64,000 nucleotides of DNA from the NCBI GenBank assembly GCA_027459505.1, contig DAIDIE010000031.1, forward strand, positions 124,001 to 188,000, given 5' to 3'. A program made the translations under genes and the position numbers. The first letter of the stretch is position 1; each line of letters begins with the position of its first letter. A model generated the notes under the pieces. It did no database searches. It had not been told where the DNA came from and saw nothing but the letters and a program-made list of their open reading frames with translations. Of the stretch, positions 16,323 to 63,011 are shown in pieces. This stretch comes from Acidobacteriota bacterium (GTDB taxonomy: Bacteria > Acidobacteriota > Terriglobia > Terriglobales > SCQP01).

Positions 16323-16609
16323 ACGAGCCAGGGCCGAGTCAAACTGCTTTCGGGTTCGAAATCGCGGGCCGAAGTGAAAGCCAAGTCCGGGGTTGCCGTT
16401 GGGTCCCGCATCGCTGGCGACGCCCGAGTTGGTCACCAGGCGAGTCGTTGGAGCGGAGAAGGTCCGGCTTTTCTCAACAGGGAAAGCCGCATGCCTCTAG
16501 ATTGCCGAAGCGCCATTGTGACGAACTCGGGCTAGTAAAGCACGAGCCACCATCCAAGATCTTCGTCGGCCGGAGACCGAAGAGGGTAGAATAAAAGCGA
16601 CCGTGCCGC
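16323..16609 (+). repeat. Dispersed structured repeat, copy A (interrupted)
   Basis: This copy begins ACGAGCCAGGGCCGAGTC and continues through the first hairpin (TTTCGGGTTCGAAA) to CTGGCGAC at 16421. It is then interrupted by a 111-bp insertion and resumes at TAGTAAAGC (16533), ending with AATAAAAGCGACCGTGCCGC. Removing the insertion restores a copy collinear with the intact ones. The second hairpin has diverged. It lies between the IS4 element and the GT4 gene at 16886. Confidence 0.88.
16422..16532. mobile_element. 111-bp MITE-like insertion inside repeat copy A
   Basis: The segment is bounded by 15-bp terminal inverted repeats, GCCCGAGTTGGTCAC (16422-16436) and GTGACGAACTCGGGC (16518-16532), which match at 14 of 15 positions. 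It has no coding capacity and an internal 7-bp stem (CGGCTTT/AAAGCCG). The uninterrupted site is known from the other copies (GGCGAC-TAGTAAAG), so the borders are exact. No target duplication longer than a base or two is visible. Confidence 0.75.
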
Positions 16610-35615: not shown

Positions 35616-35808
35616 ACGAGCCAGGGCCGAGTCGAACTGCTTTCGAGTTCGAAATCGCAGGCCGAAGCGCTAGCAAAGGTCCGGGGTTGCCTTCAAGGTT
35701 CCGCACCGCTGGCGACTAGTAAAGCCCGGCCACCATTCGTGAGCTTCGGCCGGTCGTGAGCTTCGGCCGGAGGCCGAAGCGGGTGGAATAAAAACGGCCG
35801 TTCCGCCT
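35616..35808 (+). repeat. Dispersed structured repeat, copy B
   Basis: A nearly full copy, from ACGAGCCAGGGCCGAGTC to GGAATAAAAACGGCCGTTCCGCC. Hairpin 1 is TTTCGAGTTCGAAA. The GAGCTTCGGCCGG half of hairpin 2 is duplicated in tandem (about 35738-35770). It separates rfbB from rfbA. Read leftward from rfbB, its end is reached 62 nt after the rfbB stop codon. Confidence 0.92.
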
Positions 35809-38802: not shown

Positions 38803-39000
38803 ACGAGCCAGCGCCGAATCCAACTTCATTCGAGTTCGAAATCACAGGCCGAAGCGATAGCAAGGGTCCGGATTTGCCTTTAAGGTCCCGCACCGCTGGC
38901 GACTAGTTAAGCACGTAGTTAAGCACGGCCACCGTCCGTGAGCTTCGGCCGGGTGGGGCCGGATACCGAAGCGGGTGGGATAAAAGCGACCGTGCCGCCT
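38803..39000 (+). repeat. Dispersed structured repeat, copy C
   Basis: This is the most diverged 5' half (ACGAGCCAGCGCCGAATCCAA), followed by CATTCGAGTTCGAAAT, GGTCCCGCACCGCTGGCGACTAG, a short duplication (TAGTTAAGCACG) and hairpin 2. GTGGGGCCGG is inserted after CTTCGGCCGG, a possible scar of the extra palindrome seen in copies E and G. Read leftward it ends the DUF2231 transcript 160 nt after that gene and lies 41 bp upstream of msrP. Confidence 0.88.
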
Positions 39001-46633: not shown

Positions 46634-46713
46634 ACGAGCCAGGGCCGAGTCAAACTGATTTCGAGTTCGAAATCGGACACCGAAGCGGGTGGAATACACG
46701 CGGCCGTGCCGCC
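46634..46713 (+). repeat. Dispersed structured repeat, copy D (internally deleted, 80 bp)
   Basis: The 5' end and hairpin 1 (ACGAGCCAGGG to TTTCGAGTTCGAAATCG) are fused directly to GACACCGAAGCGGGTGGAAT and CGGCCGTGCCGCC. About 95 bp between the two conserved ends are missing, and the A-run before the last stem is changed to ACACG. It lies between hpt and deoC, both on the plus strand. Confidence 0.85.
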
Positions 46714-51228: not shown

Positions 51229-51246
51229 AAAAAGAGTGCGGTCACC

Positions 51247-51482
51247 ACGAGCCAGGGCCGAGTCGAACTGATTTAGAGAGCCTTTAACGGTCTCCTGGAT
51301 TCGAAATCGCAGGCCGGAGCCGTCGCGAAGGTCCAAGGTTGCCGTTCAGGTCCCGCACCGCTGGCGACTAGTAAAAGGCGGCCGCCATCCCTGAGCTTCG
51401 GCCGGGGTCTCCATGCCGCGTCGCGCGGCATGGGGAGGGTCCGGACACCGGAGCAGGTGGAATAAAAGCGGCCGTGCCGCCT
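51247..51482 (+). repeat. Dispersed structured repeat, copy E (with GC-rich palindrome)
   Basis: A full-length copy with two changes. The loop of hairpin 1 is replaced by a longer imperfect stem (TTTAGAGAGCC, TTTAAC, GGTCTCCTGGATTCGAAA). A perfect 10-bp palindrome (51411-51420 with 51424-51433, TCG loop) is inserted right after CTTCGGCCGG in hairpin 2. It lies between thpR and pgmB. Read leftward, its terminator-like end begins 8 nt after the pgmB stop. Confidence 0.92.
51461..51480 (-). terminator. Terminator-like end of repeat copy E
   Basis: On the minus strand the sequence reads GCGGC-ACG-GCCGC followed by TTTTATT. It starts 10 nt after the pgmB stop codon. The stem is short (5 bp) but all G-C with a 3-nt loop. 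Confidence 0.5.
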
Positions 51483-51490
51483 CCGGGCTG

Positions 51491-52183
51491 CTAATAAGAG
51501 ACCTTCGGATCTATACGGAGTTGTCCATGGGACAGTTCTTCAAAATCCGATAGAACCGTTTCCGCACCGCAGGCGCTCAGGTCAGCGGCGCTGCTGGCCC
51601 CGGCAATTCCAATGCACCGCATACCGGCAGCCCGGGCGGCGCGAACCCCCGCCGCGGCGTCCTCAAAAACTATGCACTCCCGCGGCGCCACTCCAAGCCT
51701 GGCTGCCGCCAACAGAAACACCTCCGGGTCGGGCTTGCCTTTGCGCACGTCTTCTTCAGTCACGGTTGCCTGCACGAGTTCCAGCATTTGTAACTGAGCC
51801 AGCATCTGCAGGCAGTTTTCCCGCGGGGCGGAGGTGGCCACGGCACACGGTATGAGAGCGTGCCGCAAGGCGCGCAGAAAGTCCAGCGCACCTTTAACGG
51901 CTGAGAGTTCCGCGGCGGCCAGCAGGCGAAACCTCTCTTCCTTGCCGCGGGCGAGTGTTTCCGCTTGCGGCAAAGTCAACCCTGGCTGTATTTGAAGCAC
52001 GATTTCCGGATTGCGGCGGCCCGCAATCAAAGCCTGAATCCCGGCGTCGCTGTAATTCAGTCCCAGGCCGGCCAGGGTCTGCCGCCACGCTTTTATATGC
52101 AGGCGGTTGCTGTCGGCAAGCACCCCGTCCAAATCGAAAATGATCGCGCTGGCGGGCGGAAGGGAAATGGGTGGGTGGGGCAA
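51491..52183 (-). CDS. HAD-family beta-phosphoglucomutase-like hydrolase
   Basis: A 230-residue HAD protein with TTG start 52183. Motif I AIIFDLDGVLADS carries the two catalytic Asp; the cap-domain segment is HIKAWRQTLAGLGL; motif II is CAVATSAPREN, motif III KGKPDPEVFLLAA and motif IV CIVFEDAAAGVRAA. This set fits beta-phosphoglucomutase and related sugar phosphatases. No sugar phosphorylase is nearby, so mutase versus phosphatase cannot be settled. An ATG start is absent, so the first ~10 residues are uncertain. Confidence 0.8.
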   Translation of the reverse strand: MPHPPISLPPASAIIFDLDGVLADSNRLHIKAWRQTLAGLGLNYSDAGIQALIAGRRNPEIVLQIQPGLTLPQAETLARGKEERFRLLAAAELSAVKGALDFLRALRHALIPCAVATSAPRENCLQMLAQLQMLELVQATVTEEDVRKGKPDPEVFLLAAARLGVAPRECIVFEDAAAGVRAARAAGMRCIGIAGASSAADLSACGAETVLSDFEELSHGQLRIDPKVSY

Positions 52184-52814: not shown

Positions 52815-52982
52815 ACGAGCCAGGGCCGAGTCGAACCGATTTCGAGCTCGAAATCGCAGGCCGAACTAGTGGCAAAGGTTCAAGGTTGCCGTTGAGGTCC
52901 CGCACCGCTGGCCACTAGTAAAGCAGGGCCATCATCGGCGAGCGTCGGCCGGACACCGAAGCAATAGAAGTGGCCGTGCCGC
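52815..52982 (+). repeat. Dispersed structured repeat, copy F
   Basis: A full-length but degraded copy. Hairpin 1 is kept (TTTCGAGCTCGAAA, loop changed but the pairing preserved). Hairpin 2 is weakened (GCGTCGGCCGGACACCGAAGC), and the A-run is altered (CAATAGAAGTGGCCGTGCCGC). It lies between the small basic protein gene and copy G, in about 1 kb without a gene. Confidence 0.88.
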
Positions 52983-53275: not shown

Positions 53276-53510
53276 ACCAGCCAGGTCGAGTCGAACTGAT
53301 TTCGAGTTCGAAATCGCAGGCCGAAGTGGCAAAAGTTCGGGGTTGCCGTTTAGATCCCGCACCGCTGGTGACTGGTAAGCGCGGCCACCATCCGTGCGCT
53401 TCGGCCGGGGTCCCCACGCCGCGCCGCGCGGCGTGGGGTGGGGCCGGGGTCCCCGCGCCGCGCCGCGCGGCGTGGGGTGGGGTGGGGGCTGGGGTTCCTT
53501 GGCCGCGCTA
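53276..53510 (+). repeat. Dispersed structured repeat, copy G (two tandem GC-rich palindromes, 3' end lost)
   Basis: This copy starts at ACCAGCCAGGTCGAGTC and keeps hairpin 1. After CTTCGGCCGG it carries two tandem ~38-bp units, each a long palindrome: 53412-53423 with 53427-53438 (12 bp, perfect) and 53451-53462 with 53466-53477 (one mismatch). The usual 3' end (ACACCGAAG to GCCGCC) is missing. It lies 65 bp upstream of the HDOD start. Confidence 0.88.
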
Positions 53511-62836: not shown

Positions 62837-63011
62837 ACGAGCCAGGGCCGAGTCGAACTGCTTTCGAGTTCGAAATCGCAGGCCGAAGTCGTAGCGAAGG
62901 TCCGGGGTTGCCGTTTAGGTCCCGCACCGCTGGCCACTAGTAAAGCGCGGCCACCATCCGTGAGCTTCGGCCGGACACCGAAGCGGGTGGAATAAAAGCG
63001 GCCGTGCCGCC
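62837..63011 (+). repeat. Dispersed structured repeat, copy H (cleanest copy)
   Basis: A 175-bp full copy that best represents the consensus. It has hairpin 1 (CTGCTTTCGAGTTCGAAATCGCAG-type stem, written here in part), GGTCCCGCACCGCTGGCCACTAG, hairpin 2 (GCTTCGG, CCGGACA, CCGAAGC) framed by CCACC and GGTGG, and the end AATAAAAGCGGCCGTGCCGC. It lies between convergent cheB and the CBS gene. Confidence 0.93.
62991..63010 (-). terminator. Terminator-like end of repeat copy H
   Basis: On the minus strand the sequence reads GCGGC-ACG-GCCGC then TTTTATT, starting 31 nt after the stop codon of the CBS-domain gene. It is the same element as at copy E. Confidence 0.5.

Follow-up and report, generated by a model that had tools for sequence, protein, structure and literature searches.

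The 39-bp GC-rich palindrome considered here is an optional module of a dispersed element of about 174 bp, and it occupies one fixed site of that element: one to three units are found at the identical point in 34 of the 89 copies in which both flanks are kept. This agrees with the sequence-only reading of the 64,000-nt window (the whole stretch of DNA that was analysed), which had described the palindrome as an optional unit placed at a constant position of a repeat. The explanation that we favour, and which we hold to be fairly probable as a whole, is that of a boxB-like optional hairpin on the tip of the terminal hairpin (P4) of a mobile folded scaffold, which would have been gained in this lineage, spread by recombination, changed in number by slippage and sometimes homogenised in its arms.

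A dispersed element with two optional parts

The copies of the window, named A to H, are members of a small structured repeat that occurs more than 100 times in this acidobacterial genome (G000, a 4.06-Mb draft of 45 contigs). Genome-wide searches with up to three mismatches gave 118 matches for its 5' end (first 32 nt), 90 for the 24-nt junction and 91 for the 28-nt tail, and none for the reversed patterns used as controls of these three sequences. The copies were aligned from 88 DNA blocks around the matches (314 kb, window included). Only two of the 88 copies with both ends located lie inside a predicted gene. We take the element to be non-coding, mostly intergenic, mobile and probably non-autonomous, with a fold formed by the single strand. 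No match at the gathering scores of Rfam 15 was found in the window, and nothing was found that would identify the element as tRNA or tmRNA. A sub-threshold match to the RT-19 RNA (52004-52110, minus strand; 23 bits against a gathering score of 78.3) lies outside the element and inside an ORF, and it is probably due to chance. Most subscription journals lay outside the literature searched, in which nothing relevant was found on interspersed repeats in Acidobacteria, and the family appears to be undescribed before.

The element would fold into a 5' three-way junction (closing stem P1, hairpins P2 and P3), a linker, the long hairpin P4 and, at the 3' end, a short terminal hairpin. Two of its parts are optional: a block of about 113 bp can follow consensus position 101, and the palindrome module can follow position ~136. 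Its lengths are quantised at about 174, 213, 288, 327, 369 and 404 nt. The ~113-bp linker block, which has a hairpin of its own (GCGGCTTTTC...GAAAAGCCGC), is present in copy A and in about 25 long copies.

The eight copies of the window are all on the plus strand according to R1, a covariance model of the 5' domain with 71 positions. All eight were also delimited by blastn against the 174-bp consensus. Copy H (62837-63010) is an intact 174-bp element with 99% identity to the consensus, whose site is empty as previously noted. Copy F (52815-52982) has an empty site too, and so has copy B (35616-35806), which shows a local duplication of the junction (TCGTGAGCTTCGGCCGG twice). Copy A (16323-16609) is a long-form element with the linker block and no palindrome module. 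Besides, copy D (46634-46712) is internally deleted, its 5' part being fused to the tail; other internally deleted copies, with the 5' end joined directly to the module or to the tail, are found in the same genome at C12:28025-28100 and C5:18121-18259.

The palindrome module at the tip of P4

The long terminal hairpin P4 has the junction GCTTCGG-CCGGACA-CCGAAGC as its tip, and it is this tip (GCTTCGG/CCGAAGC) that is lengthened by the module. In copy E (51247-51480, plus strand), a full-length element with one module, folds and pair counts place the 5' arm GCTTCGG of the tip at 51395-51401, and it is followed by the left CCGG (51402-51405). The module (51406-51444) comes just after CTTCGGCCGG, is 39 nt long and ends in CCGG (51441-51444), an ending that had been pointed out from the letters of this copy and that proves to be general for clean units. 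The perfect 10-bp palindrome described there is present as CCATGCCGCG-TCG-CGCGGCATGG (51411-51433), with arms at 51411-51420 and 51424-51433 and a 3-nt loop. The 3' arm of the tip, CCGGAGC (consensus CCGAAGC), lies at 51448-51454. The same copy is matched by R1 at 51255-51359, and the alignment of copies shows that the P2 loop of its 5' domain holds a 21-nt insertion (51279-51299; AGCCTTTAACGGTCTCCTGGA).

Copy G (53276-53486) contains the two tandem units that had been reported, with a period of 39. The first (53409-53447) has a 12-bp stem (53412-53423 with 53427-53438), and the second (53448 to about 53486) has a 12-pair stem with one G.T and no terminal CCGG. The tail of the element is missing after unit 2, which the first reading had not mentioned. 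Copy C (38803-38998) keeps CCGG followed by GTGGGGCCGG (38953-38962), that is, the scar-like leftover recognised earlier, ending at 38962.

It could be argued that misassembly of a GC-rich palindrome produced the tandem units, as the genome is a draft of 45 contigs with palindromic high-GC repeats and the array of copy G has no tail. However, tandem arrays exist beyond copy G, one of three units on contig C1 and two of two units on C31 and C43, and their units are non-identical, so that a single assembly artefact is unlikely. With four independent arrays of non-identical units, and about 30 further loci in which a single module lies between unique flanks, we regard an artefactual origin as very improbable indeed.

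The junction was read in 100 tail-bearing copies. Both flanks are kept in 89 of them, and the site is empty in 52, carries one 39-bp unit in 31, two units in two and three units in one, and holds a remnant in three, figures that were tallied by hand from the copy list; this is the genome-wide alignment at the junction that had been proposed. The remaining tail-bearing copies comprise nine truncated ones, with the module directly against the tail, and two with internal deletions. A whole-genome scan with up to two mismatches gave 46 distinct module cores, each of them no more than 60 bp from a junction or tail of the element and none elsewhere; palindromes at random positions, which would have spoken against a fixed site, were thus sought genome-wide and none was seen. 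At three mismatches the list (119 matches against 11 for the reversed-pattern control) reaches into the control range. The reversed-pattern controls exclude a chance origin of the junction and module matches.

In 24 single-module copies, 95.1% of the cells of P4 tip plus module are paired, and covariation amounts to 0.103, against 0.048 after shuffling and at most 0.023 with the partners slid. The covariation in the module arms of these 24 modules comes mainly from two pairs (A-U, C-G, U-A, G-C and G.U types), and most other stem pairs hardly vary. The module would be an optional and independent hairpin seated on the P4 tip, working like boxB; because it folds independently, the scaffold would stay undisturbed whether there is no unit, one unit or a tandem of them.

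The sequence-only reading had also suggested that the unit moves or expands between CCGG boundaries. The units do end in CCGG, their number varies from zero to three and scars exist, but no module is found at any other CCGG and remnants break at GGGG(T) as well, so that only part of this proposal stands. Alternatively, the module could be a tiny REP-like mobile palindrome which duplicates 4 bp on insertion at CCGG, the element being merely its favoured target. Such a duplication would account for the CCGG at either end of clean insertions and for the single CCGG of the empty site. Nevertheless, CCGG is a common tetramer and all 46 modules are confined to the element, which argues that the position is set by the host element, namely by its terminal hairpin tip. 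Moreover, the only Y1 transposase genes, the class that underlies REP sequences, are two in G000 and one in G001, no element was found in the DNA around them, and there is none in the relative G006, which has at least 150 copies. A mobile palindrome of this kind therefore appears quite improbable.

Another possibility is that the module is ancestral and that strand slippage at the flanking CCGG repeats deleted the palindrome from the copies that are now empty. Palindromes located between short direct repeats are prone to precise deletion, and the three remnants (C8:162961, CCGGGTGGGGCCGG; C31:136694, CCGGGGTGGGGGCC; C10:98446, CCGGGGGCCGG) break at GGGG/GGGGT repeats, which fits what is expected from slippage. 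However, GGGGT is as good a substrate as CCGG and slippage predicts similar numbers of both products, whereas three GGGGT scars stand against 52 clean CCGG joints; most empty copies therefore probably never had a module. Besides, the P4 tip bears no such module in the elements of G006, G003 and G001, and since related lineages lack it there, the empty site is the likely ancestral state. An ancestral module is for these reasons doubtful, and we return to a gain within the lineage, where the module may have arisen once.

After this gain, the module could have spread between element copies by homologous recombination or gene conversion over the shared flanks (136 bp on the left and 38 bp on the right). 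In a tree of 85 copies, from whose alignment the junction columns had been left out, the presence of the module changes 20 times, against a shuffled mean of 26.3, and at least six of the changes are forced by well-supported branches. Near-identical copies exist that differ only by the module, for instance C8_34515 with it and C20_72770 without it. The types of module arm are randomly spread on the tree (12 changes against 11.3 when shuffled) and are common to short and long elements. These data suggest an exchange of modules between copies, for which the 20 changes and the random arm types are weak evidence because the resolution of the tree is poor, with 51 of its 82 inner branches open. All the double and triple arrays included in the tree form one strongly supported clade. 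The number of units would have changed by replication slippage between the short direct repeats CCGG and GGGG(T), with occasional loss. In several copies the left arms are exact mirrors of the right arms (CCCCACCCC/GGGGTGGGG at C26:6171; GGCCGCACCCC/GGGGTGCGGCC at C1:4914), which would be the expected product of template switching within the palindrome, and the arms may occasionally have been homogenised in this way. Whole-element recombination plus slippage is a better fit to these observations than a process specific to CCGG.

Related elements and comparable repeats

R1 gave 143 matches in the own genome, at least 150 in G006, 26 in G003, six in G008 and three in G001, and all these genomes belong to one family of Acidobacteriota. 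It had no matches in nine further genomes of that family and, with stricter filters, it matched only the own genome in a sample of 297 genomes of the phylum. In an exact-pattern search, from which records of the own genome were possibly excluded, the only named record with the element was Acidobacteria bacterium YP1.bin64 (JAKASR01), whose contigs match G006. The genus of the own genome is represented by one genome.

The support for the putative three-way junction is comparative. The arms of P1 differ by lineage and all of them pair (GCCAG/CTGGC, CGTTAA/TTAACG, CGTTGA/TTAACG and CGTTCA/TGAACG), and three pairs of the 5' domain differ on both sides between the two genera. Single-sequence folds of copies from G003 and G008 were no better than shuffles (z -1.27 and -1.33) and the three-way junction was not their minimum fold; copy E, folded as DNA, gave a z of -0.86.

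G006, from the sister genus, has an element of the same plan with hairpin modules of unrelated sequence, in tandem, at two fixed sites. The module of the P2 hairpin (GGCAATTTCGGAGAAATTGCC) is present as one to three units in 15 of 55 copies, and that of the linker (GCAATTCCGCAGGAATTGC) as one to four units with a period of 32, likewise in 15 of 55; one further linker array (L172) has five units within the stretch read. Hairpins that vary in number at fixed points thus characterise the family and are not an oddity of copies E and G. The element is a scaffold with sockets for hairpin modules, BOX-like in its working. The P2-loop insertion of copy E (51279-51299) lies at the place where the G006 elements bear modules, and the site of the ~113-bp block (consensus position 101) is the place of the G006 linker modules.

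The closest known parallel is the BOX element of Streptococcus pneumoniae, to which the acidobacterial element is likened in its architecture. BOX has the composition boxA-boxB(n)-boxC, with relatives in S. suis that contain other modules, and boxB interacts little with boxA and boxC when it folds, so that it may be absent or repeated (PMC3049150). Both elements are intergenic, high-copy and composite, with conserved flanking modules and a tandem, independently folding middle module at a fixed place, which in the acidobacterial element amounts to 0-3 units at one site. However, BOX has terminal inverted repeats and target-site duplications, and the acidobacterial element has no duplication and no convincing inverted repeats; because these two defining features fail, it is not classed as a member of BOX. 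It also differs in that its module is seated in a hairpin tip and that a second block is possible in the linker. ERIC (RU-1) of Enterobacteria is a structured intergenic repeat of about 127 bp with insertions at fixed internal positions. To our knowledge, it has no tandem hairpin array, and it belongs to another lineage, the comparison being made by description only. REP and BIME sequences are also short GC-rich intergenic palindromes with tandem arrangements, but unlike those of the REP/BIME-RAYT system the acidobacterial palindrome is never free-standing (0 of 46) and no Y1 transposase is near the element. MITEs are likewise small, non-coding, multi-copy, folded and presumably moved in trans, whereas the present element is GC-rich and lacks both target-site duplication and convincing terminal inverted repeats.

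A function as a mobile transcription terminator strengthened by the module was also considered. On the minus strand the 3' end reads GCGGCACGGCCGC-TTTTATT; in G008 the tail hairpin GCGGC/GCCGC is replaced by GTGGC/GCCAC with the A-tract retained; and copy E ends about 10 nt past the stop of a minus-strand ORF at 51491. Nevertheless, there is no preference of orientation, the genes beyond the tail pointing toward the element in 41 of 82 cases, and the module is placed away from the T-tract; we regard this role as rather unlikely.

The scaffold with its optional hairpins extends to Acidobacteriota the modular repeats of the BOX type that are known from streptococci, and its structural logic is clearer: one scaffold recurs in several genera, compensatory changes have replaced its stems, and places of the same kind hold different hairpin modules. 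This opens the question of whether hairpin modules join at structurally permitted points, and it offers a system for asking how bacterial chromosomes gain, tandemly multiply and lose palindromes. The module arrays could also serve for strain typing.

Insertion and orientation of the element

The element seems to spread without target-site duplication, as no correlation between left and right flanks was found in 83 copies. Terminal inverted repeats are not convincing either, the best being 11/20 in G000 (p 0.013), 7/20 in G006 (p 0.66) and 8/20 in G003 (p 0.49). In L162 (JAKASR010000018.1:1-8000), an element nested in another one splits CGCGCCTA^TTAACG and there is no duplication. In the own genome, 87 of 96 copies have a C four bases ahead of their left end, and so do 60 of 65 in G006. 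Within the window this conserved C is seen, for example, at 51243 and 62833, with three variable bases before the element.

A Y1/RAYT transposase as mover is unsupported, with none in the copy-rich G006 and no element near the Y1 genes. An autonomous parent, which would show a transposase between element ends 1-4 kb apart, was not seen by eye in the match lists, and the element had no match in viral contigs or plasmids.

Neighbouring copies tend to lie on the same strand. This is the case for 49 of 66 pairs in G000, against 33.7 expected (a value reached in 0 of 20,000 shuffles), and for 33 of 42 pairs among the best 66 matches of G006, against 20.8 expected (p about 1.5e-4). The coherence is unrelated to gene orientation. 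GC skew was considered as its cause and showed no clear relation in twenty 20-kb stretches plus the window. It is tempting, if rather speculative, to see here a new class of mobile elements, in which a folded scaffold would have its sockets filled with unrelated modules in each genus, amplified in place, and would insert without target-site duplication at a C in position -4, the strand coherence suggesting a link with the replication fork. Along contigs the coherence can be followed directly: the eight copies of the window (16331-62928) are all on the plus strand, and those of C31 are all on the minus strand.
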